Positions 653 through 53,937 of a stretch of 64,000 bases of DNA are shown in pieces. Location of the stretch: contig OZ021724.1 of the NCBI GenBank assembly GCA_963978545.1, forward strand, positions 31,080,433-31,144,432, given 5' to 3'. Made by a program: the position numbers and the translations under genes. Position 1 is the first letter of the stretch, and each line of letters starts with the position of its first letter. Under the pieces are notes generated by a model. It saw only the letters and a list, made by a program, of their open reading frames with translations, searched no databases and was not told the DNA's origin. The stretch comes from Linyphia triangularis (taxonomy: Eukaryota > Arthropoda > Arachnida > Araneae > Linyphiidae).

Positions 653-1180
653 TAGTCCAGGCAATTTGTGATTGAACATGCAAAAAATTGCAACAGAAGC
701 TTTTTTTAATTGATTTTTAATCAGTTATCATTGCTGAACAACATATCCAAAATCGGACAAAATTGATCCATGGGAACACCCCGAAAAACGGATTTCAAAA
801 TGGGCGGATACCATGCCATATGATGGGTATGCCTAAGCGCAGTTTTTCCTGCTCGGCACCCCCTCATCCATGATATTTTAATCACTGATGTTAGCTTTAA
901 CACAACAAAATGATAGGTTATTGTGCTTAGAATTGCATGGATTTTTTTAAAAAAGGAGGACATTACATTTCACAAGTAAGAAGGTATACAGGTACAGGTA
1001 TACATGATGTATTTTAAACAATATACATATCTTAAACAGTACATATCTTAACTTGTTGCTTCAAAGTTTGTTCAATGTCAGGAAAAGTTTCCGAAAAAAA
1101 TCCCCTTTAATCGTTTTCATCGCTTTCATTATATTCATAGCTGTTGTTGTTTTCGCGTCGATTGATTTGACACGTTCCAC
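653..1180. repeat. Left terminal inverted repeat of copy 1
   Basis: About 530 bases match the inverse of 3970-4495 with scattered differences, for example ATTGCAACAGAAGC near 690 and TTTAAACAATATACATATCT near 1013. The inner part overlaps the C-terminal end of the minus-strand coding remnant, so the coding end is duplicated at both termini. Confidence 0.85.
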
Positions 1181-2690
1181 AAGCTGTTGAACATGTCAGG
1201 CCATTACATTGCGTTTGCATCCATATAGTAATGTAGAGCAGTTTTTTGTGCAGGAACGTCGTATCATATTGAGTAAATAATTTGGAGCTGGTAGTAAGTC
1301 GCCGAGTATTGTGTAGTACGAGTTATTTTTTACATACCAACCCCATTCTTCTGGTTTGATTCTTTCTTTAGTATCTTTCCATATATTTATTTGTAAGTAT
1401 GTTCGATAGCTGTGATATTTTGTTGAAGAATGGGTCAGGAGAGCACGTTTCAGAGCAACAAATCATTTTGCTGTAGTTACCTTCGCTACTAACATTTGAA
1501 GGCGCAGTTGGTCTGTGCAATCTAAAAACCGCCAGACGTACAAAAGAAGCATTGCTTTTCTTCCAGTGACAATGATATCTGAATGTTGGCTTGAATCATA
1601 ACAAAATATTTTTGCAACAGAGCGAAACTCTGTCTCCTTCATTATTTTGGCAAATGCTGAGGATCTCCCAATTGAAAAATTCTAGATGTAGTATCGCAGC
1701 ATGTGAACGAATGCAGAAACAAAAACAAATTGCTGCTTTCACTACCTAATATAGATAGTATGGTGTGGATATCATATACTGGCTTTGGAGTTGATTCATG
1801 TCTTATATCACTTCGATATTATAGCTTGAATCCCTTATCCTTGGCGTAGTACAGAAGCAGAAGCAGCAGATCTATATCTTCTATTATCACAGTGATATGA
1901 TTGTGTTCTGAAGATGAAACTGCGGAACGAACAATGTCCACATCAGCATCCCTACCTGCGTTATCAACAGTACAACCTAGTTTCTTCAGCAAGTCACCAG
2001 TGAGAGCAATTATGGCTTGCTTGTTCTTTCCATTAGATATAAACTGTTCCTTTTTGCCAACTAATATCATGCATGGGTTAAAATTATCATCGCTACTGGT
2101 TTTTGCGTACCGTCGTCTGTGAGCCCCCATCCTTGATTGTGGGGTACCCAATGTCGCCATTCAAAACAACTACAGCCTTTCCATATGTTTTAAGAGTAAA
2201 TTCAACTTACGACATCGCAATGTTTTCGTAAGTGTCATTGTTGCACTTCGCGAAATTCGATGTAAGAGATATCCTCCATCCACTATCATTTCTGAGACGA
2301 TTTTAGCACCAAATAAGTGCAACTCGTCAATATTAACTTCTTCGGCTGCTACGCCTGTAACAATACTACGTAGAGAACAGTCAGAATTAAATGGGAATAT
2401 GGATTCTAGTACATTGACCATTTTTTTTATGTCCATGCTGTCCCTCTTTTGTGTGCTGATTTTCATTTCTTTGTATTTATCACTAGTTTGCATGGAAACC
2501 CCTGCATACTCTTGCATAGCTAAGTTGTAATTTGAACAAACGGGCATAGAAAAAAGTCATGTAGCCCTCTGATTTTGGGTAAGTCCACTCCCTCTCGTTA
2601 GTCCTCTTCTGCTTTTCAGGCAACGCATAAGCACTTGCTCTATTACAAGATCTGATCCAAGTCCACCTCATAATTTGTCCCTTCTTATCA
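1105..2690 (-). pseudogene. Degenerate transposon protein: PIN/XPG-like nuclease with CXC-like tail
   Basis: Several minus-strand open segments separated by stops and frameshifts read as the C-terminal half of one large protein. In order: a segment with KRDSMDIKKMVNVLES and PFNSDCSLRSIVTGVAAEE (about 2400-2310); VDGGYLLHRI near 2275; a PIN/XPG-like block with NKQAII, GRDADVDIVRSA and IIEDIDLLLLL (1819-2050), where the spaced acidic residues resemble the XPG-I metal-binding site; HSFTCCDTTSRIF near 1700, the family's GCDTTS block; PEEWGWYV near 1345; and a Cys-rich tail with CSTACGTCQ near 1165, like Tesmin/TSO1 CXC repeats. No intact frame remains. Such proteins are common and uncharacterised in arthropod and cnidarian genomes. 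The nuclease role is inference from the motif. Confidence 0.7.
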
Positions 2691-3125
2691 CAAATTTACC
2701 TTTCACAAACATTTTATAAACCTTTGCATTTTCAGATGGTAGTTGAAACATTTTCGGCAAGTATATAGGTAGAGTGACTTGAGATAATTTACATAACCCG
2801 CAGCTGCTATTCAAGGGATAATCTCAAGCATAGCATATAAGTGCAATTCCCAAGAATCTATCCTGCCAGCTGTTATCAATCTTCGTACACAATGATCATT
2901 CGCTGGATTCCAACCAGAGGTTACTTGTTCTCGAAGATTGCAAGGCCAAAGCAATCTCAATCTGAGCCGAGGCATCACACAGTTCTACAGCTTTTTTTTT
3001 TTTTTTTTTTTTGCTTTTTTTTTTCGGTTGATCGTAAATTCGTAGAGTAGGTTATAAGCTTCCTTAACATGGCCATTAAGAGACCTATGTTCATCATGAG
3101 AAAAAAAACTCTTAAACCATCAGGG

Positions 3126-3776
3126 TAGCATTTAAGCATACCTCACATTGATTCAAACCACTGAAGGGAATGAGAGTGCTCCATTGGCTGATCCATTGCT
3201 TTCATGGAAGCCGCTAAACACCTGACAATGTTTACTGTGTTGACACAGAGAATTAAACGCATGTTTTAAATCTTGAGTTTAGAAACTGATTTTAAAATTG
3301 CGAATGTTTTATAAATAATAATTTTATACCTGATTAATGTTTTACTCCAATTGGATCTAATTAACTGCTTTTAACAACAAAGTATAAATTTTGGATATTT
3401 ATCAAGGAAAATTATGTAGCTGAAGTATATTTTTGAAACCAAGTTTATTATTATTATTTATTTATTTATTTATTTTAAACATTTAGAAGTACAAAAAAAA
3501 TTCGGATGATTTTTGGTGATGATCCAGGATTTTTTTTTTTTTCATACAATGATTTGACGTTGCTTGTAATGAAAACAATATCTTCCTTTTTTATATAATC
3601 ATATTTTCAAAAACAAACTAAGAAAATACGAATTCTCTATCAACTTCCCCTTCAGCATGCAGCCGCCATTTTTTGTGGGAGTTACTTCTTCGCAGGCTGA
3701 CAGGAAAATTGACCAATGGACCAACTCTTATTCTTTTCTGTGGTTTGAATCAATGTGAGGAATGCTTAAATGCTGG
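3126..3776. mobile_element. Nested MITE-like inverted-repeat element
   Basis: AGCATTTAAGCATACCTCAC at the left is matched in inverse order by GTGAGGAATGCTTAAATGCT at the right, and the similarity continues for about 70 bases (CATTGATTCAAACCAC). There is no coding capacity. Flanking GGT on both sides may be a 3-base duplication. It lies inside the larger long-TIR element, so it inserted later or is an internal derivative. Confidence 0.65.
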
Positions 3777-3969
3777 TATCTTGAGCAATTCAGAGGAGTT
3801 CCAAATGTAATGCACATATAGGAAAATGAAAATTCAAGAAAATAACTAAAAACTATAACTTAATATTATATTGTGGTCCTTTATTGAGTTAGCATGTATG
3901 TTTAGCTCATTTTCAAATGTATTCGATGCTTCATTAATGTAACTTTGTCTTTAAACACCGATACTCTAA

Positions 3970-4495
3970 AAACGGAAGCAAACGGGATCAATGAATGTGA
4001 AAACCACAACAACTATGAATGTAATGAAAACGATTCTGGTTTTTTTTTTTCTTGAACATTTCTGACATTAAACGAACTTTTAAGCAACAATGTAAGATAT
4101 GCACTGTTAAAGATATGTATATTGTTTAAAATAATCCTATACCTGTGCATCTATACCTTCTTACCTGTGAAATGTTATGTCCTCCTTTCTTAAAAAGCTC
4201 CATGCAATTCTAAGCACAATAACCCACAATTTTGTTGTGTTAAAGCTAACATCTGGGATTAAAATATCAAGGCTGAGGAGGTGCTGAGCGGGAAAAACTG
4301 CCCTTAAGTATCCCCATCATATGGCATGGAATCAGTTATTTTGAAATCCGTTTTTCAAGGTGTTCTCATGCATCAATTTTGTCCGATTTTGGATATGTTG
4401 TTCAACAATGATAACTGATTAAAAATCAATTAAAAAAGCTTCTGTTGCAATTTTTTTCATGTTCACTGTATTTTTAATTTAGTTTGTCTGGACTA
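3970..4495. repeat. Right terminal inverted repeat of copy 1
   Basis: Inverse of 653-1180. It ends in CTGGACTA followed by the GTA duplication. It also carries an inverted copy of the coding tail (near 3970-4030), as expected if the inverted repeat reaches into the gene. Confidence 0.85.
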
Positions 4496-4498
4496 GTA

Positions 4499-4696
4499 GC
4501 TTTAAAGAAGAACACTTTTTTTTTAAGAAGGACTTTATCAGGACCCTCTACGGAAAAGCGGCGAGGCAATTTGGCGGAACATTCGGGCGGCGGGACAGCA
4601 AGAGGTGAAGCGGGACGTCTGGTCACAATAGTAATATGGTATAATTTTTATATTTTACTATCTTGTCAATATAACTTATTCCCTTATCAATAGTTG

Positions 4697-4727
<31 letters not shown>

Positions 4728-7700
4728 CAAAATAAAAGCCTACAGAAGAGATGGACTTTAAAAATGCATATAATATGTTTATTATTATTATTTTCAAAGA
4801 GAAAATTTATTCATAATTGTTAATTAACATTTCCCTTCATTGAGAAATGCAACAACATCCACTGATCTAAACCAATATAAAAATAGAACTAAAAAATTGC
4901 ATTTTGAGGGAATGAGACTGGGCGGTGAGGAAGCCGATGGTTTCCCTTCAACGTTACCAACACCAACACTTGCATCTATTATGTTGACTTTATGGAGGAT
5001 TTATCAGAATCTGAACCACAAAGAGATTTGTCCGAAATTCTTTTTAAATAAATTTTAAAGAAAAGTTATAGATTATTTTCTATTCAGGAAAAGAATATCT
5101 ATAAATGACAAATTATGCAAATCTCTTCATTCCAGAAAAAAATTCCTTCACATAAGTCCTTTATTGTGTCACGTTGGAGCGATCCGAGTGGCAAGTTATA
5201 AAACTAGTAATCTTGTCTGCAATTCAATTCTGATACGAAACTATCGGACAAGAACGATCTCTACAAAAATCAAATATTTCTGAAGATGGTTACTGTAAGT
5301 AATTATTTGAATTACTTCTTTTGGAACTACCTATTGTTTCTGGAACTTGTTAAGAATAAATCCCTTTATTGTAGGTTCTTTTCAAAAACTAATTATACTG
5401 TGTCGTATAAATTTCTCCTGGGTAGTTTCCAGCGTCATGATCATCCTCTATGACTCATCTTATTTGAGTACACGCGTTCAATAAAATGTTTAGATTTGTC
5501 CAAAAATGTGTTCTTATTTGTCGGGTGTTTCACCAATCAATGTGTATTATTATAAGAATTTACTTTTTTCTCACTCGCATGTTTACAAAATAAAATGCGT
5601 AAATTGATAGGGCGTTACCTGTATAAACTCCATCAATAAGCTCAGACTAACTAAAATTCACTATTTATTGTATCCTAAACCTTTTATTCACTTTAATTGG
5701 TAAGTCAGAAGCATTCTTGTTGTAAATTTAATATTGTACAAGAAGTTTGCCGATTGGAACTCTCTGTTTCACTTGGCGTCATTGACCGGTTTTGACAGGC
5801 TGTTAATTTTTTTTGCAATTTGTGGAATATCAAATGCAATCGATAAATTAAATTTTGTTGAATTATATTATAATTTTAGGATGGCTTGAAAATTGTGTAT
5901 TTTTTGTTTTATTATTTAGCTCACGAAACTCTAATTTCCATCCCAATTTCTGTCATATCCTAAATTCATAATAAAATTCGAATTCTTAATAAATATTCAA
6001 AATTTAGATTCCTTATAAATAAATTAAACTTAAAACATGAAATAAAAATATTGAAGCAATGGTAGTACAGATGTTGTATAGGGGACCTGGTGAGATTGGT
6101 TACTTTGCAACTCAAACAGGTGAACATTGTTGTAAAACTTTTTAGAAAATAAAGGGTAGCTAGTTGAAAATATTTATGTTTTAAATAGAAGAAAGTTACC
6201 AAAAATTGTCAGATCCCTAAAGTACATCTCTACCAGGAAACAAAGGTATCTTCTAAAATCACAATACATATGCTAAAATATTTTGTGGCCAATATGCTAC
6301 GTTCTTTGAGCTGTTTCTGAGAACATTGTGGAGAATAAAAGTGTTTGTTAAAAAGTTAAATTATATGCATTATTTATAAATAGAGCACCTATAAAACTGG
6401 ACTCTTTTAGTGCAGCTTTCTTTACAAAAAAACCAGTTAGATCTGATAAAACATAAATGTGATAGAACATCATCTACAATGTTCATGTAATTGCAGCAGC
6501 TTCCGCTAAATTGTGATCTGGTTATAGTTCTCGATCTTTCGATTCAACATCGTTATTGCATTTCTCCTTCACGGTATTCAACACACTTGTTTAAAAATGT
6601 AAAATTAACTTATAAATACAATATATAAAAATATCCTCAATCCAGTTTGGTATAAGTTAGGTGCCATAAAAGTTATATTTAAAAAAAGATTGTTTTGTAT
6701 TGCAGTTGTAAATTGAGGTATAAAATGTATGAAAAAGTGACTTAATGTACTTCAGAAAGTAAAACTTCCAAGTATGGTACAGATTCTATGCCAAGAATTA
6801 TTTACGTAAAACCACGCCAAATTATGACAACCATAGGCAGTTCTCTTGTTATTTAAAAAATGGTGGTGGCTGTTATTTGCTTGCAAAATTTGTACCGTAT
6901 TTAGAATTTCAACCCATCAGAAATCAACACAGTTAAAGTATTGGGTACTCTTCAGTTAGACGAGCACCAGATAAAAATCATCAAATTGCAGCGATAAGTC
7001 ATTCAAAGTAATGACCTTCTGATCATTTATACAACCCTATAAGAAACTGTGATGAATGTATTTAAATAATTTAATTTAAATGTAATAAAAATAAAACTCC
7101 TCAATGTTAAAATATTTTTTCTCGTGAACACTTCAATTTGACGATAATTATGCCAACTTTCAGACTTTGCGGCTTTTGGTGCCTGTCTAACAGAAGAAAA
7201 CCAAATATTGACATTACTCTTTCAATTAACCTTTATTTTTTTAAGTGATATTTTTATTTTCAAATTATTCCTCTCTTTATTGCAAGTGATGTTTTGATAT
7301 ACCCCTGTCATTGTCAAATAGGCGACTTAATTTAGAACCAACACGGTTTTGTTATGGTGATCACCTTAGTAATAGGAAAGTCGTAACAAACAAAATTTGT
7401 TGCGGATAAATTTGCGAGAACTGCATTTATTTTTTTTAAGGTTAATTATCTTTCTCCCATCTTACATTTTTCTGTCAACATCGTACTTTGCAGACCAGTT
7501 CAGGTGTAACTCAATGCCTGCTTCAAAAGGAATTAATAGATGGTTTCAAGAAGTGTTAAAGTATACAGCAGTTTTAAAGAATAACTCCATTTTGAATTTG
7601 TTTTTGAATTATTTACCATTAATAGTGTTCACAAATTTTACATCCCAAAATATTGCAGAATATTTTTCTGCTACTTGGATGGTTTAAAAAAAGTTGAAAT

Positions 7701-7844
7701 TTGGCAGGATTAAAAATCTTTAGTATGGAGATGTATTAGTAATTCCCTATCCTTTTTAATATTTCCAATTTTTTAAGATCTCACTGTTGTCCATTACTGA
7801 CTCTAAAGCTGCCTTTTGGCAATCGTTCCAGTTTTATTGAAATT
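4499..7844. other. Intergenic, nothing recognised
   Basis: AT-rich DNA with a poly-T run near 4700-4727 and low-complexity patches. The few short open frames lack splice sites, conserved motifs or codon structure that would support a gene. Confidence 0.5.
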
Positions 7845-8200
7845 GTCGACAGAATAACATGTACCATATTATGTATTGAAAAGATAATTCAAGTTAAATG
7901 ATGACACCTCAGCTCACTCAGAATATATTTGTTGAGAATGCATGTCTGATAACTGAAATTATTTATGTTTAAGTGTGATTGTTAGTCTGCCCCATGTACA
8001 TAATGAAATATTAATTGCATCAATCTATAAAAATATTGCTTCAAAATGTATGTAATTTTGTACCATATCCAAGAACAATTATAAAAGCATGTTAACCTAA
8101 TTTTATTTTCAAATTAAAAGTTTCAAAATTCCTGGATTTAAACTCTACCTGCTCCTTCTTTAATGCATGAACAATTTTTCAACGTATGTAGTAGTCTCTT
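7845..8200 (+). repeat. Direct duplication, copy A
   Basis: This segment is repeated about 0.9 kb downstream at 8738-9106. Shared stretches include GTCGACAGAATAACAT, ATGACACCTCAGCTCACTCA and ATTTATGTTTAAGTGTG, with moderate divergence. It has no coding signal, and is either a diverged segmental duplication or two copies of an unnamed repeat. Confidence 0.75.
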
Positions 8201-8737
8201 GATGTACAAACGGTACAAACAGTGATCAGATTTGAAGTTGTGTATTAGTAGCTTACTTTGTACTTGTTTTAGAGTTTACAATCTTTTAATTTGTTAAAAT
8301 ACTATCAACATTTTAATCTCATATTTTTCTTAATTTTGAAAATGAATTTTTTTTTTTTTTTTTTTTTTTTAATTTTGTGCAAGTTTTCAAATAGGTACCT
8401 GCTTTCTTTTTGAGGTTTAGGTCAAAAGTGGGAGTTCTGCAGCTAATTAATACTGAATTAGTATGAAACATCAGTTTCTACATTTTAAATTTTAATCTCT
8501 CTCAAGATGAAAAATTGCAGATTTTATTTCTAATTTTACGTCAATTGTTAAGAAGTCAAAAAGTATAATGCTACTATTTTGAGGGAACTTGGATCATCCC
8601 AATCATTGGGAAGATTGGAAAAACTACTGTTCCAAGAGTTCTGGATTAAAACCCCAACATTCAGCTCTTTAAATTTAATACTACAACGATTGCAAGATTA
8701 ACAGTTTTCAAAGCTATGATATTTTGTCAAAATTGGT

Positions 8738-8883
8738 CGACAGAATAACATACAAGTACCAAATTATGCATTGAAAAGATAATTCAAATTACATGATGAC
8801 ACCTCAGCTCACTCAGAATATGTTTGTTGAGAATCCATGTCTGATAATTAATATTATTTATGTTTAAGTGTGGGTGTTAGTCT

Positions 8884-8924
<41 letters not shown>

Positions 8925-9106
8925 ACCAGAGACATAATGAAATATTAATCGCATCAAAATTTGTTTTGTTATTTTATCCATTTCCGCAGCTGCACCTGTT
9001 GAACAAAAACGTTATCACTTCTTCGGTTTTATTTTCAAACAATCTGAATTTAAAACTCTGCTTGCCCCAAAAATTAAAAATTCCGTCTTTAATACAAGAC
9101 TTTTGA
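8738..9106 (+). repeat. Direct duplication, copy B
   Basis: Second copy of 7845-8200. It differs by an inserted poly-T tract of more than 30 bases at about 8886-8922, placed where copy A has only CTGCCCCATGTACA, which suggests expansion after the duplication. Confidence 0.75.
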
Positions 9107-9621
9107 CAACAGATAAGTACACTTGCTGTTTTGACTGTATAGCCGCAAAAAGCATTATTAATGTGTCAAATCGGTTTGTCTGTAGCTGTAAGACTTAGCT
9201 ACTCCAGGTAACCAACACATTCCCCATTCTTCAATTCCGTCTGTAAACCAAATGATTAAATTAAATCTCATCTAATCACCTTGTTTGAGAGTATCCAGAT
9301 TTAAAAGCAGCCTTATAGTGGCAGTGCCTAATTACAATTAGCGTTTAGTCGTATTAACTAATAATAACCATGAAAAATTTTTCATGGATGCCACTGTCAG
9401 CCAATCCGAAAGTTACATGCTAAATGTTGTACACAAGTGTACTCAAAGGTCCAGAACACCATGTATGTTGATATTCTCCCTTGACAGATTTCTTTTACTA
9501 TTATATCTTGGGCAGATATAGTTGAGTGACCGTATTTAGCTGCACAATTTATATTCAAAACATACAAAAAAATTATAAGGCATAATTATTATTAGACATA
9601 TCTAATGAGTTTTTGTTTCAG
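9107..9621 (+). other. MED21 upstream region and 5' intron end
   Basis: The stretch ends in a pyrimidine-rich 3' splice site (TTTTTGTTTCAG, AG at 9620-9621), so MED21 probably has an upstream non-coding exon. I could not place that exon or the promoter. No other gene is visible. Confidence 0.45.
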
Positions 9622-9628
9622 GAAACTG

Positions 9629-10045
9629 ATGGCTGATCGTCTTACACAATTACAAGATGCTGTAAATGCTCAAGCAGAAAATATCTGCAACAGTATTGGT
9701 GTCTTGCAAAGTAGTTCCCTTCCAAGCAGTTTCCCCGACTTTGAAAAGTCGCCTCGAAATACCCAGCCACTTAAAGAGGATATTTGCCAGACTTTTGCAA
9801 CTCTAATAGCTAACACAGCAAAAGAAATAGATGTTTTGATTGACTTTCTCCCTAGTGAAGACATCTCGCAAGATTCACAAGAGGACTTTAAACGCTTAGA
9901 CAAAGAAAATAAAGATGCTGCATTGAAATTAGAAAAAGTTGTTCATGCTGGTGAAATTCTTTTAGAACAAATCCGTAAAGCCTTGCGAGATATTGCACAA
10001 TCGCAAATAGAGATTCAAAAGCTTAGCAACATTAATAACGTTTAA
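9629..10045 (+). CDS. MED21: Mediator complex subunit 21
   Basis: MED21 (Srb7) is a small helical subunit of the Mediator middle module; it pairs with MED7 and links transcription factors to RNA polymerase II in the nucleus. The protein opens with MADRLTQLQDAVN, the near-invariant start of animal MED21, then TAKEIDVLIDFLPSED (residues about 68-83) and a helical C-terminal half ending in LRDIAQSQ. Length is 138 residues against about 144 in human. An in-frame ATG 24 bases upstream lies in the intron before the AG at 9620-9621, so 9629 is the start, 7 bases into the exon. The whole coding region is one exon. The stop is only 34 bases before the ARP1 start with no AATAAA between, suggesting a shared transcript. 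Confidence 0.96.
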   Translation: MADRLTQLQDAVNAQAENICNSIGVLQSSSLPSSFPDFEKSPRNTQPLKEDICQTFATLIANTAKEIDVLIDFLPSEDISQDSQEDFKRLDKENKDAALKLEKVVHAGEILLEQIRKALRDIAQSQIEIQKLSNINNV

Positions 10046-10079
10046 CTTTTTGTGATATATTTACCTTTAAACTCTAAAA

Positions 10080-11210
10080 ATGGAAGCTTACGATGTGATT
10101 ATCAACCAACCGGTTGTCATAGACAATGGTTCCGGCGTCATCAAGGCAGGTTTCGCCGGAGACCAAGTTCCGAAATGTCACTTTCCAAATTACATTGGTC
10201 GTCCTAAGCATGTCCGCGTCATGGCAGGTGCACTAGAAGGCGATGTGTTTGTGGGTCCAAAGGCTGAAGAACATAGGGGATTACTTACCATACGCTACCC
10301 CATGGAACATGGTATCGTCACAGACTGGAACGACATGGAAAGAATTTGGCAGTACATATATTCCAAAGAGCAACTTCAAACCTATCCAGAGGAACATCCT
10401 GTATTACTGACAGAAGCTCCCCTTAATCCACGACGAAACCGAGAGAAGGCAGCTGAAATATTCTTCGAAACCTTAAATGTTCCTGCACTTTTCATCTCCA
10501 TGCAAGCTGTCTTAAGTCTGTATGCTACGGGCCGTACCACAGGCGTAGTTCTAGACTCTGGCGATGGTGTTACTCACGCAGTCCCCATATATGAAGGGTT
10601 TGCTATGCCAAATAGCATTATGCGAGTAGATATTGCTGGTCGGGATGTAACGCGTCACTTGCGCACTCTGCTGCGAAAAGAAGGGTGGAATTTCCGAACC
10701 ACAGCAGAGTTTGAAATCGTAAAAACCATCAAGGAGCGGGCTTGCTACCTTGCTAGCAACCCTCAGCGAGAGGAAACAATGGAAACCGAGAAGGCACAGT
10801 ATACCTTGCCTGATGGAAGCACCTTAGACATAGGGCCTGCAAGATTCAGGGCACCTGAAATTCTCTTCAGACCTGACCACATCGGTGAAGAAGTTGAAGG
10901 TTTGCATGAAGTTTTAGTAGATTCGATACACAAGTCGGATTTGGATCTTAGAAAAGTGCTGTACCAAAACATTGTATTGTCAGGGGGTTCAACCTTGTTC
11001 AAGGGCTTTGGGGATCGACTTCTGAGTGAAGTTAAGAAAGTGGGACCCAAAGATATCAAAATAAGGATTTCAGCTCCACAAGAGAGGTTGTATTCGACGT
11101 GGATAGGGGGATCCATCTTGGCATCGCTAGATACCTTTAAGAAGATGTGGGTATCGAAAAAAGAATATGATGAGGAAAACATGCGCGCTATTCACAGGAA
11201 GACATTTTAA
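10080..11210 (+). CDS. ACTR1: Actin-related protein 1 (alpha-centractin), dynactin subunit
   Basis: ARP1 forms the short actin-like filament at the core of dynactin, the dynein cofactor for microtubule transport. It is an intact 376-residue protein, the same length as human ACTR1A. Actin-fold nucleotide motifs are visible: [15 protein letters not shown] (about residues 13-27), [18 protein letters not shown] (about 156-173) and [17 protein letters not shown] (about 297-313). The Arp1 hallmark [17 protein letters not shown] is present, and the C-terminus KTF resembles the actin KCF ending. The start context AAAAATGG is favourable. There are no introns, which is notable for an actin-family gene here and leaves open an old retrocopy origin, but no poly(A) tail or duplication is seen and the frame is clean. 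It probably shares a promoter or transcript with MED21. Confidence 0.98.
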
Positions 11211-11393
11211 TATAAGACTTATGCTAATTTTGGGTTTTTTTCAGGGCTCGTTTTGATAATGCTCTAATTATTTTTTACCTTGTAATTTATTTTGCTAATA
11301 GCTATGTGAAATTGCTTAATTTTAGCAATCGTTTCTATTAAAATTACTCGTTTTTGTAAATTAAAATGTAAAAATGTAGGTGAATTCAAAGGA

Positions 11394-11471
11394 AATAAAA
11401 TTGCAAAATGCCTTGAACTAATGTACCCTCACTCTGTGATGCAGTTTCTAAATTATGGGTTTGACAATAAA
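11394..11471 (+). terminator. Candidate poly(A) signals for ARP1
   Basis: AATAAA occurs at 11394-11399 and 11466-11471, 184 and 256 bases after the ARP1 stop. There is none in the 34 bases between MED21 and ARP1, so these may serve both reading frames. Confidence 0.5.
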
Positions 11472-11870
11472 CGTTTTCTTTGCCTTTTATGCACACTTCT
11501 CTTATTTCCATGAACTTATTTTAATTTCACTGCCGTCATTTGTTAAATGGCCCTAAATCCAAAAAAATTTAAACCCATATTTTGTCATTTTCTAATTAGT
11601 CTTTATAGAATTATCTTTTACTTTCATTGAATGGCTCAAGTTTTTAAGTCATACAAGCTTATACAATCCAAAAAAATGACATTTCATATAATGAAGCAAA
11701 AATTTCAAAATATGCATTTCAATTTTTTTTTTTAATTTTTTTTATGGATTTGGAGCTTTTTAACTTGTGATGGCAGTAGATATCTTCAACTTTGGAAACT
11801 TGTATGTAATCTTTTATGACAATTGTATTTAAATCCCTCAAGTCAGCAATTTGGTCTCGAATACTTTTTT
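11472..11870. other. Intergenic, nothing recognised
   Basis: AT-rich sequence downstream of ARP1 with T and A runs. No exon or repeat is identified. Confidence 0.5.
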
Positions 11871-11882
11871 AAAATTTCCCCT

Positions 11883-12047
11883 GCCAACGTGATGGCTGTG
11901 GGGTTAGTGCACTGGCCTCGCATGCCGGGTTCAAATCCCAGATTAGGCATAGATGTTCGTTGTGGTTCGGAATCCACGTTAAGCTGTAGATCCTGGCCTG
12001 ATTTACCTTTATTGTGTACAAAAATAGGTTGTTGAGTGTACAAACTA
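11883..12047 (+). mobile_element. tRNA-derived SINE with target duplication
   Basis: A 165-base insertion flanked by AAAATTTCCCCT at 11871-11882 and 12048-12059, a 12-base target duplication. Near the 5' end it has a tRNA-like pol III head: GATGGCTGTGGGGTTAGTG (A-box region) and GGGTTCAAATCCC (B box). The body carries GATGTTCGTTGTGGTTCGGA. Related copies lie at 34815-34950 (same body) and 31028-31062 (inverse of the head). Confidence 0.85.
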
Positions 12048-12059
12048 AAAATTTCCCCT

Positions 12060-13580: not shown

Positions 13581-13593
13581 AATGGATATTGTA

Positions 13594-13788
13594 AATTAGC
13601 ACAGAAGAAGCAATAAGAACTAGAAGATGGCGTTTGACTGGTCACATACTCAGAATGAACCAAAACGATATTCCAAGCGTTGCGCTAACTTGGGCACCTG
13701 AGGAGTCGTCCCTATCTGACTTGGAGAAGAATGATGGAGATGCCGCCAGATGGTTGAGCGCCCCAGGGTACAACAACATATGATGATG
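13594..13788 (+). mobile_element. 5'-truncated LINE, 3' end of reverse transcriptase ORF
   Basis: Flanked by a perfect 13-base duplication AATGGATATTGTA (13581-13593 and 13789-13801). The plus-strand translation gives RRWRLTGHILRMNQNDIP and ALTWAPE; after a frameshift it gives RPYLTWRRMMEM, and back in the first frame LSAPGY before stops. This is the typical C-terminus of non-LTR retrotransposon polyproteins (GH..RM....P..A L.W.P...RGRP..TWRR..E). The tail is ATG repeats rather than poly(A), as in RTE-like elements. It is a dead, heavily 5'-truncated copy. Confidence 0.85.
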
Positions 13789-13801
13789 AATGGATATTGT
13801 A

Positions 13802-18347: not shown

Positions 18348-18536
18348 ATTTGTGCAGAGATTGGCTAATGTTAGGGGTTAATGTAAAGGAAAATCAATTA
18401 AAAAACACGAACATCTCATATGGTTTCAATTACAATAACAACGATGACATGACAATCGAAGGAAGTTGAGTTGCGCACTTCCTGCTGATGTATAAATGAG
18501 GTTTTTTGTGACAGTTTTACTTTCGCAATGGAAATA

Positions 18537-18544: not shown

Positions 18545-18600
18545 GATAAACGTGAATAAAGTTGTTTTTTATGCTGTAGCTTTGAGCGTAAACCTTGAAT

Positions 18601-20567: not shown

Positions 20568-20580
20568 GTCTGAAAGGAGG

Positions 20581-20764: not shown

Positions 20765-20777
20765 GTCTGAAAGGAGG

Positions 20778-38893: not shown

Positions 38894-38918
38894 ATGAATC
38901 GTAGAAGCTTAGGCACAG
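38894..38918 (+). CDS. Coiled-coil gene exon 1
   Basis: ATG plus seven codons (MNRRSLGT) and one base, donor ACAG/GTAAAC. Confidence 0.75.
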
Positions 38919-44900: not shown

Positions 44901-47900
44901 AATTTTCCCTTAGATTTAAGCCGTTTTAACTGAAGCTATTGGCGAGATTCGCGACGTCGTTTTGGTGTCATTCGCCTAGACTTCCGCTGATGTGAAAGAC
45001 GCTATGTACGTTATTAGTGTGTATGTGAGGATCGTTTTCACCGTTTTGTTTGAATTAATGATGAATGATTAGAATTTTAATTTAATTTTGCACAAGAAAT
45101 TAATCCAAATCGTCCCAGTTTTTATTATGTATCCTTATTTAAAATTGTCATTTTAACTGCTATTGAATGTAAAATTGTTTATTTTAACTTGAAAAACAAT
45201 TTTGCATTTTAATTATAGATGTAAGCAATAGTTTAAAGTTAAAGCAATTTTTTTATGTATAATTGTTTAAAATTAATTGTGTGGGGAAAATGTGTTTATT
45301 TTGTAAAAATTTTGCTTGGGTATTGTACTTAAACAGCGGCTACAGCTGATCTTAAACAAAAAAGAAAAATTTCAAATAATGAAATTGAACAATTTGGACA
45401 ACGAAATTATGCAAACTAAAAAGCCAATGAAAATAGTGTAACTCCCCCAATCCAACTACATTTGAAGGTTTTTTTTTTTTGTTTTTTTTTTTTTTAAATG
45501 CACAAATTAAATTGATATATAATTCATAAAATATAAAAATTTTACTTTACGAAAATATTTTAAATTAATTATTGATTTTTGAAATTTGATTACAATTTCA
45601 AGTATTCAGAAAACAAAAATAGTTAATATAATATACAGAGTATTTGTTAAATGTGTGTGTGTTTGATCCATTTTGACATGATTTATGGTTTGTTTTTATT
45701 TTTAAAATTTTACTTAAGAAAACAGCTTATTAAATCTAAAATTTAATACTAGAGTCCTCTTTTCTTGAGATTAAATTATAATGAAAAAAAAAGTCTGATT
45801 TTAAAGTATAATTGCACATGCACAGTACAGGTACACTATACATACACTACACTAAATGAAGCTTTGGTATTTGTGTCATAAATGTGTAAAGATAAACAGT
45901 ACATGCAACGTAATTTTCTTTATGATGGTGAATTTGAATGTTCTTTTACTTGAAAGTTTATTATTTATATATATTTTGTCGATAAGTTATAATCAGGGAA
46001 AAAATTGGGTGTTACAGGGAAATATCAGGGAATTTTAAAATAACTTTTCTGTGGACACCCTGAATGATTAAATTTAAAAAGTTTTGAATTATTGTAGAAT
46101 GTAGCTAATAACATAATGTCTAAAAAATGTGTATCAAATGAACAAATACTCATTAATATTAAATAAGAGTGTGCTGCTAATTACTTATATTTATTCTATT
46201 TAGCAACCATTTAATAAACCACTGTTAATGTGTGTTTGTATGCAATCTAATTCTATTTTTGTTTATGACATTTAATGTATTATAAATTGGATTTCATGGC
46301 CGTTCCAATTTTAATATAGGTATAACTAAATTTTAGAAAGCAAAAATTTTCTTTGGAATTATAATTTTCTTCTACATTAGACAGTTGATTACTTGCATCT
46401 AGATATTTATAACATACATGCTAAAATATTTATATGTGTGGTTGGGCATAGTGATTACTACCTTTCAAAAGTTCACAAGCAATCAAAGATTATTATATCT
46501 CATCCAATCTATCAAATTATTATATTAAAAAAGAGACTTTAAAAATTGATATTGTATAAAAATGTATTGATTAAGTTTATAATGAAATACATGGGTGCCT
46601 CATAGATCATAACACATTCATAAAGTCATTTTTAAAAAAAAACAAGTTTATTAACTTATTAATTATACTCATTTTTTGTTTAAGTATGTATTAAAGCCTT
46701 TACTTCTTTGCAAAGGATAATGTGTCTTTTATACATCTCCGTTTAACAAAGGGGTCTTGTGTGGAACTGCATCGAAATATAAACTGTTTTAGTTGTTGCA
46801 TTCATCAGTGTTAATGGCTTTGTTAAGGATTTATCTTTTGATGAATTTGTTAGAATCTATTTGAGACTACTGTTAAAAGCTTGTTTTTTTAACCTTCAAA
46901 ACATAATCATTGCCACATTATTTAAATGTCTTAAGCTTGCTGACTGATATGGAAATATATTATTTCTATGCTGTTTAAGTTATACAGTCATTAATGAAGA
47001 ATTCAAAATATTAAATTTTGGATGGTTAAAAATATGCACCTGTGTTTATGTTCCATACATTAAAATTCTTTGACTGATTTACAATTAAAGCTTTATAAAC
47101 ACTTTTTTTTTTTTTTTTTTCAGAAAGTGGCAACATGGGTTTATTTTTGTTAAGAAATGGCTCGTCCCCTACCTCCAGTTACAAGGACAGTGCATCTTCC
47201 TCTAAACTTGATGACAACGTATTTGTCCCTTTGCCTGTGGAGAACGAGTTGCCTGAGAATGATCGAATTACTGTCAGAAAATCTTTGCGAAAAAAGGAAA
47301 AAGAATATGCTGAAAAGCAATCCAAAGAAACATCCGTCACAAAAAAGAAGCCTACAAAATGTCTTTTCCCTCCCAAGTTCGTTACTGTAAGAAAGGATTC
47401 ACGCATATCTAGTGAGCACAAGAGGTCAAGCTGTAAAAGCAATGTTGATATTTTGCCCACTTACTCTGAAATATTAGAAGATTTTAAAACGGAAGTGCCC
47501 GCAGCATCTTCGAACAACTTTCTGTCGGATAACAGCAATGCGAGTAGCAATTCTTCCGATGATTCTTCTAGACTTTTAAGAAAGAACAATAGCATCAGTG
47601 TGGATTGCTCGACACAAACAGTTCTAACTCTAACTGAGTTGCAGACTATTATTAAAAAAGGCCTTGAATGTAGTGAAAAAATAGAAGTGCCTTTGTCTTC
47701 CTTGACTGTGAAAAATGAATGTATTAACAATACATTGAAGAAGTCCTCTGATATTGAAGCTCCAATCAGTCAACCAGCACAGGTATGTGGTATATTTCTA
47801 TCCCATGTTATAAAGGAATCAATGTCAGCCTTTGATACATGAGTACTCACTGAATTATTTGCAGGGGGGGGTGCAAGGTGATTAAAGTTTTTACACATGT

Positions 47901-49593
47901 CTTAATCTCTTTAACCTTTTAGCTGTTCAGTTATTTAAATGATTTGGGTACCTAAATTGTTCACTTTTTTTATTGCAAAAAACAAATGTTTAATACAAAA
48001 TAAAATATACTTAGCAGTTAAAAATTAATATTTTTAATTATATACATAAAAATTTTAAGGTTTTGTGGCGGCTGCCACTCAGCGTGGCAGTGGTAAAGTT
48101 CGCATCCAGTGGAGCATTATTTTCTAAAAATTAAAAAAAAAAAAAATCAATTTAATTATTTTCTAAATAAATAAATAAATAAAAATGAATACCTATTAGT
48201 AGTTCAGTTTTGTATATAACTATAATATCTATATATAATTTTGTAATATCTATATAACGTTTACGGGATGCCATTTTGCAACAAAAAAATGCCGCGCACT
48301 TTGACTTTGACCTCAACCCTTTGGCATCTAACCTTTGAAACTTGCAGTATAGTGCTGCCATCTATTGCATTGAGCGCAAATAAATTCCTCCCGAGATATA
48401 TTCGGGTATAACAACACGAAGCAATCAAAAAAAAATTACCCCGAGTAATACTCGGGCGTGACATTTTGGAACACCAGTGCTGTGCCCGAGATTACCTCGG
48501 GCAGAACAGTTAAAAGGTTAAAAAATAGATATTGAATTTCTTAATAAAATGTTAATAGTTGTATATTAATTTTCTGTTCAAATGTATTTTATACAACTCT
48601 AGAAATCTTTTTTTTTTCTGTAAACTTTACTCTTTTTCTTTTCAATTTTTAAAAGCCAAGAAGATACTAGTACACCTTCCTGGTGATATCCATATTTTGA
48701 TATGACATTGAATTATAAAATGTTCGAAGTTATTTGCAATCAAAAGCTATAAAATTAATCCTTCTCTTGTCTCAACAGAATTTCATCTTAAATTACTAAC
48801 TTTTCAAAGTATGCATTAGGATCTTGTTCATGTTCTGTCTTCGGAGTACATATATTTTTGGTTTGTCAACACATTTCCTTTTAAAATTTATTTTATTTCT
48901 CGATCAAATTTTTTTCCATAGGATAAACTACAATAATGGTTACATTAAATTTACTTTCTATTGTATTCATTATAAGCCTATTAAAAAAAATTAACCCACT
49001 CTTTCAATTAAAAAATCAAACCTTTAAATTTTGTATAATGGATTTTTTTTTGTGATTTTATATATATTTATATTCTATAGATCCAAGCCAATATAATGCA
49101 GAAATTGTTAAGAGAAATTGTTGACCCTGAATGCTGTGAAATTCGCCAAATATTATACCTTCATCACTTATCAAACAGCAAGCTTCTATTTAAAATATTG
49201 GTTTGTATCTTTGTTTCAATATCAAATTTTGTTAAATTAATGTAATGCAATAGCTAGGCGAAGGAAATCCCATGAGAAAATAATTCATAGTAAAAATTTT
49301 AATACTTATATATTTTTATACTTTATAAAACTAAATAACTGCAAGATGCAAAGTTAACATAAAACCTCAGGATCACAGCAAGGATAATGTAGTTATTTCT
49401 CTCTGTTCCTCTGTAGCTTGTTTTTTCCCTCTTTTTAATTTCATTCAAATGCATTGTGTAATTCTGTTTATATACTACATTTATTAATTCTAAGTAATAT
49501 TTGCATATTTTTAAATATAGGGCATTTCAGTAGTGTGCTGGGAGAGCAATAATAAACACTGGTTGAAAACAATTTAGATATTAAAATATTTAT

Positions 49594-49636
<43 letters not shown>

Positions 49637-52600
49637 AAATCTATTATCTTCAACTGATGAGAAAGCTAAAGCTATTATAATTGTTTCTACATAAAAAAAT
49701 ATATATATACTGAACGAAATGTGTTATTTAAAACTGAAATATGCTCAATTAAGAACAATTTGTTGAAGATTGATTTACATATTGTGTTGTTAAAAGGAAA
49801 CATCAGTTGCATGTAAATTGCAGGGATAGTATAGGCAAATTAGATCCAAAATTGGGTCTAGACGGAAATAATTATTAGAAAGCTGAATTCTTCTGAAATA
49901 GGTTCCTTAGGCCCTCCTGGACTCCTCTAGAAAAGTCCCAAAAAATCCTCCTTGGGCAACATTCTTAAATTTTGAATTTAAGTCCGCCATCTTGGATTTT
50001 TTTTTTTTTTTTAAATGCTATAACTCAGCAACGCACAATCATAAACTGGTTCTGTTGGTGTCAAACGTTTCTTTTTAGCAAGAAGAACTTGTTACTGCAA
50101 TAAAAAATCTAAAATAAAGAGTTGATATAATTTTATTAATATAAAACAAGCCAAAAACCTGCAAAAACAGATTTTTCCACTAAAGGTTTGTAAAATTTAA
50201 AATTTATTCGATTAAAATCTTTCGTTTTCAAAAAAAATAGGTATCACCACTGTTTCTATTAGTTTTTTTATAACTGTTATTGATCGTTTACAGGTTTTGG
50301 AAAGCTGAATAAAACTGGAAGAAAATTGCATTTTCTGCGGTGAAGGCGGAATGATAGACAACAACAGTGTCAATATAACAAGAGGTTTGAAGAATTCAAG
50401 GAATATCAGTATAAATAGAAAAGATGGGATTGTGAAAAAAATCGAAGGCGTTAATCATGTATGAGCGCATGTACAGTGCAGAAAAAATTATACCAGACAT
50501 GGGAGTTACATTTCAGCAGCTCTACCTGGAGGAGTAAATACAACAAAACCCCTTCCCAGAAGTAATCTATATCTCTTCAACTTTAAAACATGTTGCCTTT
50601 TTTGCGGGGAGACAGTTTATAAGGGAGCTTACAAAAAGAACCCACATCGTTACCCAAACTTTTGGTGTCCCAAAAATTTCAAGTATTTGGAGTATGTGTG
50701 AAAATTGGAGGAAATTAGTTCTATATTGCATTGACAGTGAATGTGATCTAATAGCGGTTGAAGCTCAATATCATAAAAACTGTGATGCGTGGTTTTCAAT
50801 TGTTGGCTCAAGCATGTTAAGCGAGCCATCTGAAAGTATGGTCTGAAGACCTGTTGGTGAGTCGAAGTTAGATGCTTTCAATAAATTATGCAAATTTCTG
50901 GATGCCAACAACGGCTGCCAGTATTAACTATCCGAACTTATGGAGATGCACTCAAATTTTATTACTGAATGTGTCAAGTTATACAGCAAAAAGCTTCCGA
51001 TGTATCTTTTAATAGCTTTCTACGGCAGTACCGTTCTTATTTCAGCTAGCATGAAGTGTTTCGGGACAGTTGTTTCTTTTAGGCCAGTTGCATCGAAGAT
51101 TTTGACGGAAAATTGGTACGCTGACCGAAAAAAAGACATCTTTGATGAAAAGAAAAAGATCATAGATGCGACTATTAGCAACCTATACATTTTCAAGTTA
51201 GAAAGAAGAGATAAGATCTCAAGTTTATGATTGCACAGCATCTCCAACCTGCGAAATATATCGGGGGGAAGGGGGGGGAGTCGGTGAGATGCTTATTCAT
51301 ATGCTTTCTGATATAATAAAACCAATAAAGGGTTGCCTTGCAATCGGAAGGTGTTGAGTGTTGTGCACTCTAGTGTTTCTTCAGTGCGTCCACAATCATT
51401 TGTGTCAGCTGTGCAGGTTGGAATTGGAGTGCTTCTTGGCGTTTCCGATTAAGACGTCTAATTAACCTTCGAGACAATTTCGGCTGGTCTGTTTCCTACA
51501 GTGAGATTTGTAAGTATGAAACTTCCGTAACAGTGAACACTTCAAGAGAAGTTCAGGATAACGGATTTATGCAGTATGTCTTTGATAATGCCAATCACAC
51601 ACTCAAACTGTGGATGGACATGGGACTTTCCACGTGATGGGAGGAGTACAGTGTGTGACGCCTTCTTCAGCTGTTCAGACGAATTCACATATTCCACGAC
51701 CAAAGAATCTACCAACGTCAACTGTTGTTAGAAAGTTTAGATTAATCCCGATCATTACTTACGACCGTCTTAAGAACCATGGATTAAAGCGCCTAGTTGG
51801 AAGACGTCCTTTCCCTGAAATTGAGACCCATGAATGCTAAAATCGGAGACGTATACCACTGGATTTGGATGGTAGGTCCCAAGTAAGCTAAAGAACCCAT
51901 ACAGGATGGAGTTGTTTGAAGGAGATTGCCGCAGGAAAAAAAATGCTACGAAAAGTTAGCAGTAATAACCTTACCCTTCGTCAATCTTCAACCTTCTAAC
52001 CCCACCTCAATTTACACCTGTCTTCGTTTTACGGCTGAAGAATGTAGGAAGCAATAACAAAAGTGTATTGTAGCATTTGATCAGCCGCTTTTTATTGAAG
52101 CTATAGGTTTAGTCTTTCAGGCTGATGAAACTAATGAGCTATCCAAAGTAATTGTAAGACTAGGTGGATTTCATCTGCTTATCAGTTACAAGGGGGAAGT
52201 GGGAAAAATCATAGCTGGCAGTGGTATTAAAGAAATGAGGGGTGAGATATTTGCTAAGAATGCCGTTGTCCACATGTTAATGGGAATGCTTGTTCAAGAG
52301 CTTTACGAGCTCATTCGCTTTCTCAGGCAGCTATAGCTCATCTGATTTGGGGAGTTGTGAGGAAGACACATTTTTAATCGCTTCTGAGGTCGAATCTCTC
52401 TGGGAAATTCATAACGAGGTGATAAACTTATCTTCTTCTGAATAATATTTTCTATCCAAAGTCCAACCATAACTGAGGATTGTATCCGACGCGACGAATG
52501 CGCTGGAAAAAAAAGGCTGTGCAGCAAAATTATGGCTGCAGTACTTCAAGCAAGTTTCTATAATACATGATTTCGTGAAAGCAGAAAGAAGAGGTGACTG

Positions 52601-53937
52601 GGATCTTCATCTCTTCTTTGTCCAACTCATGTTAGTTTACCTCCATGCAGCTGGACATATTCATCACGCTAAATCAGCCCACCTCTATCTCTAGAATATG
52701 GCTAAAATCAAGACTACTTTGTCGGATTAAGAGTTAGTATGTTTCGTCAGTCAAGGTTATTTTACAATTCGGCAATCGGATATGTTTTGGAGCGGCATTT
52801 GGACGGACGTGATTATTGAAAACGGGTACTAATGCGATCTATGAAGGTTAGCGGTGGCTTGACACAAGGGCGAAGTATGTTTGATAGTGTCGTAGCGCGT
52901 TGGATTTGCTTAATGTCAGGAAGTCTCCATGCGACGAAAGCAGTAGAAGCTTTCGCAGGAGTGACAGGTGAATCCTCCGACCAACACATTTCTTTATCAA
53001 GATCGTGGCGGACTCTAGATACCATTGATTTGAAGAAATTTTTTATTTCGTACCCGCGTTTCAACCAGAGAAATTAGTGCAAAGCGTACACGATATTAAT
53101 GAAAGACAAAATCTTTTAAACGAAAAACAACTTTTTTTGTAAAATAATGTCTAAAAATTGCTGTTTTTAATGTTTTCAAACCAATTTTAAGTTAATAAAA
53201 TTATATTAACTCTCTATTTTAGACTTTTTATTGCAGTAACAAGTTCTTCTTGATAAAAAGAAACGTTTGACACCAACAGAACCAGTTTATGATTGGGCAT
53301 TACTGAGTTATAGCGTTTTTAAAATAATCCAAGATGGCGGAGTTAAATTCAAAATTTAAGAATGTTGACAAAGGAGGATTTTTTGGGACTTTCCTGGAGA
53401 AGTTCAGGGAGGCCTAAAGAAACTATTTCAGCAGGAATCAGCTTTCTAATAATTATTTCCATCTCCAACCCTAATTTGCCTATACTAGGATAGATTGGCT
53501 AATGAGAGTATGAAATCTGTTAAATTAAAAAAAAAGTGAACAAAACGGCAAGTAAAACAGGCTGGGCGCTTAACATGTTGGCAGGTGTTTTAGACTAACT
53601 GCAGTGATTTTTTTCTTTTTTGTCCTACGAGGCATGCAATCTTAACTGTCCATTTCAATCTCTTACCTACTGTGTCATTAAAGAAAAAATATTGATATCC
53701 TTAATTTTACAAACTATAAATCTAAAATTATTCACCTTAATTTATGCAACCAGTTTTTATTTTCATTATTCTTTATTTTTGCAGGATGAATTAGAGGTAG
53801 GACGAAGCAAAGAGCTCTTAAAAGAAAATCGGCAATTGCGGAATGAAAATCAACAACTGAGGATTGAAAATCTACAATTCAGGAATGAAAATATCCAGTT
53901 GAGGAATACTCACATTGCTCGTCAATACAAATATTGA
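38894..53937 (+). CDS. Unrecognised coiled-coil protein, seven coding exons
   Basis: I do not recognise this family. Exons: 38894-38918, 39327-39473, 41324-41340 (17-base microexon, or alternatively 41341-41393), 42991-43081, 47124-47782, 49081-49200, 53785-53937. Phases agree across all GT-AG junctions and the total is 1212 bases, 403 residues. The N-terminus is polar (MNRRSLGTDIYSPIRFD). The large fifth exon is Ser/Lys-rich and basic, with LRKKEKEYAEKQ, a Ser run and DCSTQTVLTL, whose TQT core resembles dynein light chain LC8 docking sites. The C-terminus ends in a helix (IQANIMQKLLREIV) and a regular coiled coil, ELLKENRQLRNENQQLR then RIENLQFRNENIQLR, ending RQYKY. Likely nuclear or centrosomal scaffold by composition only. 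Introns hold large transposons. AATAAA at 54051. Confidence 0.8.
39327..39473 (+). CDS. Coiled-coil gene exon 2
   Basis: 147 bases encoding YSPIRFDASFNDSSLNPDGS and NEVNRLFLILPKP. Acceptor CTGTTTCAG, donor CCAG/GTATAG, phase 1 in and out. Confidence 0.85.
40247..41192. mobile_element. Foldback element with ~300-base inverted arms and TTAA ends
   Basis: TTAA at 40247-40250 and 41189-41192; the inverted ends GGAGAGTCTGAATTTAA and GGGGAGTCGGAGTTTAA are alike. Strong pairing continues inward: CAATTTGTATTATCGTTT, TACTCAAAAACTATTAAAGA and AATATATTACACA occur in both arms. A SINE sits in the loop. Kolobok or piggyBac type by its TTAA; no transposase. Confidence 0.85.
40640..40830 (+). mobile_element. 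SINE-like insertion in the foldback loop
   Basis: GTGGCGGTTTGGTTAACCTGG, with a B-box-like CAGTTCGAGCTGG, then a tail TTGTTAAATTGAAATAAATA that matches the SINE at 36590-36860. Boundaries approximate; the A-box core given is GGTTTGGTTAACCTGG. Confidence 0.55.
41324..41340 (+). CDS. Coiled-coil gene candidate microexon 3
   Basis: 17 bases between CCAAATAG and a strong donor CAAG/GTGAGC, with entry phase 1 and exit phase 0 exactly as its neighbours need (GKKICK). The alternative is that the same CAAG is used as an acceptor and the exon is 41341-41393 (53 bases, also phase 1 to 0, containing QEMSFDLQRKHDIDTS), with donor TCA/GTGAAT. Confidence 0.45.
42991..43081 (+). CDS. Coiled-coil gene exon 4
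   Basis: 91 bases encoding KLLKLVSDEDSCEFQKEKAV and LSKTADKKN. Acceptor ATATTTAG, donor AATA/GTAAGT. Confidence 0.85.
43204..46062. mobile_element. 2.9 kb hAT-like element with 5-base duplication
   Basis: Ends CAGGGTGTCCACAGA and TCTGTGGACACCCTG, flanked by AATGA (43199-43203 and 46063-46067). Subterminal GGGAATATCGGG and GGGAAATATCAGGG repeats on both sides. No transposase found; the interior holds a degenerate repeat block (43480-45010). In an intron of the coiled-coil gene. Confidence 0.87.
43480..45010. repeat. Degenerate repeat block rich in CCGATATT / CCGAGATTTACG
   Basis: GC-richer than all surroundings. Phrases such as GCCGAGATTTTCGCTG, TCACCGAGATTTACATT, TCGCTGAGATTTACGCT, ACCGATATTTACGTTG and GTGTGATGGTCATTTT recur irregularly every 50-100 bases. 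Looks like an old array within the 43204-46062 element. No coding frame persists. Confidence 0.65.
47124..47782 (+). CDS. Coiled-coil gene exon 5 (large)
   Basis: 659 bases, acceptor poly-T followed by CAG, donor CACAG/GTATGTGG. Ser/Lys-rich with basic LRKKEKEYAEKQSK and KCLFPPKFVTVRK, a Ser-rich acidic patch, and DCSTQTVLTLTELQTIIKK. Confidence 0.9.
47911..48521. mobile_element. piggyBac-like MITE with three internal palindromes
   Basis: TTAA at 47911-47914 and 48518-48521. Inverted ends CCTTTTAGCTGTTC and CCTTTTAACTGTTC. Near the right end there are three palindromes in a row: CCCGAGATATATTCGGG, CCCGAGTAATACTCGGG and GCCCGAGATTACCTCGGGC. A tRNA-like patch (GTGGCAGTGGTAAAGTTCGC) lies near 48080. 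In an intron of the coiled-coil gene. Confidence 0.85.
49081..49200 (+). CDS. Coiled-coil gene exon 6
   Basis: 120 bases, phase 0 both sides: IQANIMQKLLREIVDPECCE and LHHLSNSKLLFKIL. Acceptor TTCTATAG, donor TTG/GTTTGT. Confidence 0.88.
49599..49635. repeat. Long poly-T tract
   Basis: An uninterrupted run of about 36 T. Similar long T runs on the + strand occur near 2991, 4700, 8349, 8887 and 24271. Confidence 0.9.
49827..50150. repeat. Left terminal inverted repeat of copy 2
   Basis: About 325 bases, inverse of 53165-53487 at high identity, with a T-run expansion near 50000. Confidence 0.9.
50540..53080 (+). pseudogene. Degenerate transposon protein, N-terminal and central parts
   Basis: Plus-strand pieces separated by stops and frameshifts, in family order. 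Near 50595: CCLFCGETVYKGAY (Cys pair). Near 50745: DLIAVEAQYHKNCDAWF, the family's YH..C block. Near 51575: FDNANHT, then after a frameshift VDGHGTFHVMGG (51610). Near 52560: IHDFVKAERRGDWDLHLF and LHAAGHIHHAKSAHLYL. Near 52755: FTIRQSDMFWSGIWTDVIIE and RSMKVSGGLTQGRSMFD. It ends near 53075, before the PIN/XPG-like part that copy 1 retains. No intact frame. Catalytic role inferred. Confidence 0.72.
53165..53487. repeat. Right terminal inverted repeat of copy 2
   Basis: Inverse of 49827-50150, ending CTAATTTGCCTATACTA and the GGA duplication. Confidence 0.9.
53785..53937 (+). CDS. Coiled-coil gene exon 7: C-terminal coiled coil
   Basis: 153 bases with stop. Acceptor TATTTTTGCAG. Heptads QLRNENQ, QLRIENL, QFRNENI, QLRNTHI follow one another without a break, each with Leu or Phe at the core and Asn-Glu at fixed positions. 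Confidence 0.9.
   Translation, partial: DELEVGRSKELLKENRQLRNENQQLRIENLQFRNENIQLRNTHIARQYKY

Follow-up and report, generated by a model that had tools for sequence, protein, structure and literature searches.

Two internally deleted DNA transposons of the spider Linyphia triangularis, probably of the Academ superfamily, retain parts of a protein combining a predicted DDE core and a 5'-nuclease fold

The 64,000-nucleotide window analyzed here (Linyphia triangularis, assembly GCA_963978545.1, contig OZ021724.1, positions 31,080,433 to 31,144,432) contains two remnants with long inverted repeats, copies A (653-4495) and B (49827-53487), which enclose broken frames of a large protein. This locus raises the question of whether the protein is the transposase of a DNA transposon, and what a nuclease of a DNA repair type does within it. 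We conclude that A and B are dead, internally deleted copies of cut-and-paste DNA transposons. The best explanation as a whole is, with high probability, that both are dead members of a single superfamily, which is most likely AcademX and has a protein containing two nucleases.

The initial annotation of the window attributed shared TAGT-type ends, 3-base duplications, and inverted repeats of several hundred bases to both copies, and all three features were confirmed. The termini of copy A are TAGTCCAGGCAA on the left and, as the reverse complement, TAGTCCAGACAA on the right, while copy B has TAGTATAGGCAA at each end, read inward. The terminal inverted repeats (TIRs) and the 3-bp target site duplications (TSDs) are listed below with the protein parts, which were placed by tblastn and are numbered by the intact relative P0001.

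Copy A:
653..4495, no strand assigned: transposon copy A, internally deleted, 3843 bp (ends, TIRs, and DNA match to the genomic locus L032)
650..652, no strand assigned: left TSD, GTA (flank reading)
4496..4498, no strand assigned: right TSD, GTA (flank reading)
653..1129, plus: left TIR (673-1129 pairs with 4015-4465, 457 columns, 87%)
4015..4495, minus: right TIR (pairing with the left TIR, and terminal bases)
2284..2988, minus: transposase piece with the end of the helical insertion and the E840/GGLT block (P0001 717-959, 52%, E 1e-61)
1666..2286, minus: PIN/XPG-like 5'-nuclease piece (P0001 1069-1274, 50%, E 3e-109; family fold)
1208..1678, minus: post-nuclease region with the EWGW block and the start of the CXC tail (P0001 1271-1427, 64%)
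1110..1205, minus: end of the CXC tail (P0001 1427-1461, 51%)

Copy B:
49827..53487, no strand assigned: transposon copy B, internally deleted, 3661 bp (ends, TIRs, and DNA match to locus L047)
49824..49826, no strand assigned: left TSD, GGA (flank reading)
53488..53490, no strand assigned: right TSD, GGA (flank reading)
49827..50146, plus: left TIR (pairs with 53185-53487, 320 columns, 85%)
53185..53487, minus: right TIR (pairing with the left TIR)
50327..51437, plus: N-terminal part in broken frames, with the Cys pairs, YH..C block, and winged-helix region (P0001 11-383; 24-26% identity to P0001 and approximately 32% to P0002)
51395..52347, plus: first half of the DDE core in broken frames, with DNxD, TFHVMG, FDQPL, and LGGFH (P0001 371-680, from P0001 and P0002)
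52497..53035, plus: second half of the DDE core in broken frames, with the glutamate and the GGLT block (P0001 735-911)

Since tblastn with intact relatives places copy A on P0001 residues 717-959 and 1069-1461 (minus strand) and copy B, with gaps, on 11-911 (plus strand), we regard them as complementary fragments of two families. A retains the C-terminal side and B the N-terminal side, and they overlap on P0001 only at approximately 735-911, the GGLT stretch. The domain order proposed from both copies stands insofar as the blocks are present, but the two sides are never together in one copy of the window: A alone has the PIN/XPG part and the CXC tail, and B alone has the Cys-pair and TFHVMG blocks. 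The winged helix assigned to B is predicted solely from the modeled fold of a relative. The claim that both copies enclose the same large protein holds at the level of one family of proteins of approximately 1460 aa, but the elements themselves are, on sequence comparison, different families of one superfamily. Over the matched pieces, A is 49-74% identical to P0001/P0015 and B is 32-52% identical to P0002, and blastn of A and B pieces against the window revealed no nucleotide similarity between them at E <= 1e-3.

Copies elsewhere in the genome (1.35 Gb, 369 contigs) link the protein to these ends. In the search with P0001, 32 of 3314 first-look candidates were scored, 52 matches were listed, and 15 loci were fetched. 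A, B, L032, and L033 supplied the end probes, so that L032 and L033 were each probed with their own sequence; the ends of these two had first been recognized by pattern and by TIR. Both ends were present at 11 loci and one end at four (L035, L037, L040, and L046). Thus, all 15 loci carry at least one such end and no copy of the protein without them was found among these, which supports the suggestion that it is the transposase of a DNA transposon. L032 is a 5965-bp element of family A with the TSD TTG/TTG, matching P0001 25-1461; copy A pieces are 82-91% identical to it in DNA. L033 belongs to a third family (ends TAGTCCGGTCAA, 5608 bp, TSD AAT/AAT, P0001 11-1445 matched) and has TIRs of 342 bp at 94%. 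Longer relatives of the window copies are present in the genome: L032 and L047 carry both sides of the protein in broken frames. In the search with P0002 (32 of 3466 first-look candidates scored, 49 matches, two places fetched), the matches represent further lineages, some without stops within the match.

The TIRs of A, B, L009, L032, L033, and L034 are 310-457 bp long with 84-94% identity. The duplications co-occur with the protein: a perfect 3-bp duplication flanks 12 of 14 two-ended copies (the 11 loci, the two window copies, and L009), whereas random pairing of the same flanks gives 3.8% (binomial P of 9e-16 for all 14 copies, and of 4e-13 when the two window copies are left aside and 12 remain). 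L048, with mutated ends, was later read by eye and has CTT/CTT, bringing the total to 13 of 15. All three diverged families have TAGT ends and the protein, and two-ended copies of each have a 3-bp TSD. The full-length element is approximately 5.6-6.0 kb, with TIRs of approximately 300-460 bp beginning with TAGT and 3-bp target duplications.

A composite query, with its N-terminal side taken from the broken frames of B and its C-terminal side from those of A, was scored against 7990 candidates, of which 63 proteins matched at E <= 1e-3. Thirty-four of the 63 have at least 1400 aa, many on contigs of approximately 5 kb, and the named hosts are whitefly, aphid, butterfly, moth, thrips, mayfly, stick insect, pearl oyster, and sponge. 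A profile search returned 265 relatives among 7995 scored candidates; the best 120 include Porites corals and the bivalves Mytilus, Mercenaria, and Mya, and four of these 120 bear the JGI name "5'-3' exonuclease". All relatives listed with an organism name are animals (insects, molluscs, corals, and a sponge). When viral contigs were scanned with A1, an alignment of 37 proteins picked from the 63 and mostly near full length, there were 59 pattern matches, none of which was confirmed as a relative. As anticipated, the public names are uncharacterised, unnamed, or hypothetical, with one "Tesmin/TSO1-like CXC domain-containing". No description of this group's protein was found in the passages available from a partial literature collection, in which absence is no proof.

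The protein appears to be a single chain of approximately 1460 aa with N-terminal Cys/His pairs, a winged-helix-like part, a DDE core, a 5'-nuclease, and a CXC tail. Predicted models give good support to the DDE core as a transposase core of the DDE/RNase H type containing a helical insertion: the putative triad D437, D594, and E840 sits on the expected strands and helix, and in structure comparison the model matches the P element/Hermes fold, in which the insertion precedes the glutamate helix. The proposed PIN/XPG-type nuclease does belong to the protein. We demonstrated an Exo1/FEN1/XPG-type 5'-nuclease fold with its seven acidic active-site positions (1071, 1110, 1180, 1182, 1204, 1206, and 1265), and predict 5'-flap activity. 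The triad and the seven positions are identical in all 37 proteins of A1, and the nine aligned cysteines of the CXC tail are present in 34, with gaps in the other three. In a larger set (145 proteins of at least 1300 aa out of 177 returned by both searches), the triad is intact in 144 and the full set of nuclease positions in 141; 140 retain both active sites. Over these 140 proteins, pairwise distances in the DDE part correlate with those in the nuclease part (r 0.90, a value reached in none of 500 permutations); therefore, the fusion looks old, and both parts appear to have evolved together.

We speculate that the Cys/His pairs and the winged-helix part bind the TIRs, and that the DDE core, given its fold and invariant triad, would cleave the 3' ends and join them at a stagger of 3 bp. 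CXC domains bind DNA, and the CXC tail may do so here. The 5'-nuclease may work in the same reaction, most likely on the non-transferred 5' strand, which it would cut or trim at the ends, or it may clear 5' flaps and gaps after joining. In the strongest alternative, which could well be correct although we do not lean toward it, the element is the same, but the nuclease takes no part in the cut: it serves repair in an accessory role, removing flaps or assisting fill-in after integration, or it acts at replication forks and thereby raises the copy number. The substrates of FEN1, Exo1, and XPG enzymes are 5' flaps, nicks, and bubbles, and no second nuclease takes part in excision by P element and hAT transposases, whose DDE folds are the nearest. 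However, the retention of both active sites in nearly all fusions and their joint divergence suggest that each cycle requires the nuclease, without indicating the step. Cutting of the 5' strand by the nuclease would make the protein a one-chain eukaryotic transposase, in which a P/hAT-like DDE enzyme processes the transferred 3' ends and a FEN1/Exo1-type nuclease the non-transferred strand, as a counterpart of TnsA-TnsB. We offer this proposal only tentatively and with some doubt, by analogy with Tn7, in which TnsA acts beside TnsB on the 5' strand. The division of labor may be the same; however, TnsA is a separate, restriction-type nuclease of prokaryotes, whereas here both enzymes are fused in one eukaryotic chain.

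The AcademX lineage of the Academ DNA-transposon superfamily is reportedly the subject of work by Kapitonov and Jurka in 2010 and Kojima in 2020. The AcademX nuclease is of the XPG type. In the passages available from the following sources, duplications are 3 or 4 bp in AcademX and 9 or 10 bp in AcademH and are tied to the encoded nuclease or helicase (PMC10045372), the Academ target duplication is 3 bp (PMC5199201), and Academ is placed in the DDD/E class (PMC9587614). Molluscan Academ elements, almost confined to bivalves, are treated as DDE/D and have a mean length of 5565 bp in bivalves (PMC10294476), and Bemisia has 1097 Academ copies (PMC9143410). Our elements agree with these descriptions of AcademX in duplication length, nuclease, class, and element length; no difference was found in this comparison by description. 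They differ from AcademH, which would share their superfamily if the Academ assignment is right, in having a nuclease and 3-bp duplications instead of a helicase and 9-10 bp. Pfam scans revealed no credible helicase, with one chance-level DUF87/HerA match (one of 32 intact relatives, E 0.041). The initial suggestion that the elements are Academ-like thus fits, and they probably belong to Academ, most likely AcademX; since the comparison was with descriptions and not with an Academ sequence, membership is very likely but not proven. The alternative of a superfamily separate from Academ, in which a DDE core and an XPG-like nuclease were combined independently, draws on the lack of a direct sequence link to Academ and on DUF6589 being the only repeated Pfam match. 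The agreement in TSD length and nuclease content with the published AcademX description, as far as its passages are available, makes it improbable.

Compared with other known systems, the predicted core shares the RNase H/DDE-type fold and the helical insertion before the glutamate helix with P element and hAT (Hermes) transposases. The target duplications of the latter are 8 bp, in contrast to 3 bp here, and our protein additionally carries a 5'-nuclease and a CXC tail within its one chain. The nuclease shares its fold and seven acidic positions with Exo1, FEN1, XPG, and GEN1, but is fused to a transposase and has DAD where FEN1 has the motif EAE.

A host gene family of Tesmin-like proteins, pieces of which were captured by unrelated TIR elements, is suggested by the public names "Tesmin/TSO1-like CXC domain-containing protein" and "uncharacterized". 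We consider it very unlikely because every locus fetched in the P0001 search carries at least one of these ends, the ends, the protein, and the TSD recur in three diverged families, and a single genome holds 3314 and 3466 first-look candidates, 32 of which were scored in either search. Chance inverted repeats and 3-base matches, for which the AT-rich (31% GC), repeat-filled window may allow, were refuted by the long TIRs of six copies and the duplications in the same genome, and their probability is negligible.

Several points weigh against an AcademX-type transposon with a two-nuclease protein. A plain Foldseek search with the DDE model gave no match at E <= 0.001, and a longer model reached RAG1 and HzTransib only at E 0.3-0.8. 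The P-element structural match has an rmsd of 6.9, and largely helical models may reach a middling Z by chance. The ten raw window fragments had no Pfam match. Among the 32 intact relatives, the sole repeated match was DUF6589 (12 proteins, best 5.8e-6), XPG_N matched one (E 0.18), and no CXC (Tesmin) model was among the 25 families listed at E <= 1. Since these matches are weak and scattered, Pfam would miss both enzymes. The protein frame of L032 is interrupted by stops and frameshifts, the right end of L047 was not found within the fetched stretch, and no copy was read with both ends and an uninterrupted frame. The duplications of L036 (AAA/TAA) and L041 (ATA/ATT) have one mismatch each. 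Moreover, the name Academ was assigned from described features.

Family A includes nine more deleted copies of 3.36-3.59 kb (L034, L036, L038, L039, and L041-L045), with mutual identities of 88-99%, which retain approximately P0001 633-1461. They represent a uniform 3.4-3.6 kb derivative that multiplied, keeping the nuclease half and the ends and lacking the first two DDE aspartates. In these copies and window copy A, private substitutions number 503, 510, and 451 at codon positions 1, 2, and 3; differences fixed relative to L032 (42, 39, and 54) are too few to decide. A selected, nuclease-only protein was unsupported in this rough test without dN/dS. The codon-even pattern is as under neutral decay; therefore, the deleted copies were presumably mobilized in trans. 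L034 lacks 2128 bp (906-3033) relative to L032, and the deletion of window copy A looks separate because the sequence of copy A continues for 28 bp more on the 5' side. Copy A also contains a 62-bp inverted repeat (3127-3187/3713-3774, 89%) within approximately 3128-3801, a stretch without a match in L034 or L032 and possibly a nested insertion. In the B family, a 3' deletion is common to B, L009, and L048. We rejected the idea that B lacks a nuclease by nature, since L047, 86% identical in DNA over B 1-3222, runs on through the nuclease to P0002 residue 1413. L009 holds approximately 2.75 kb of extra sequence (1286-4034) near B position 577.

The bare pattern TAGTNNAGGCAA matched the genome 3004 times, against 1297 for the reversed control. 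A tandem array with TAGTTAAGGCAA (G000:C1, approximately 16.67-16.76 Mb, mostly at approximately 690-bp spacing) inflates such end-motif counts; therefore, the count alone is no evidence. Of 17 loci fetched by this pattern (L009-L025), L009 is the only complete element. L011 and L013, copies of each other including the flank, have one A-like end and a short protein match each, L014 has a short P0032 match, and L023 has a long TIR with a non-matching right end. Since most of these sites are not members, the bare 12-mer is a poor marker and the protein-led search is the better test. The long-TIR element of L023 (531-5431; arms of 289 and 164 bp, 77-80%) has no match to this protein family.

Elsewhere in the window, two adjoining open frames on the plus strand (9596-11210) resemble, by eye, Mediator subunit 21 and centractin/Arp1, and an open frame at 58740-59021 (plus) similarly resembles a BED/hAT-type transposase fragment.

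At least 265 database proteins, named uncharacterised, "Tesmin/TSO1-like CXC", or "5'-3' exonuclease" if at all, are very likely this transposase. Linking the protein to the transposon would clean up the annotation of animal relatives. If true, the one-chain, two-nuclease model would account both for the short duplication of 3 bp and for the difference from AcademH, which bears a helicase (9-10 bp). The permanent fusion of a DDE enzyme and a flap nuclease raises the testable question of whether half of the cuts in a eukaryotic transposition reaction may be made by a repair-type nuclease.
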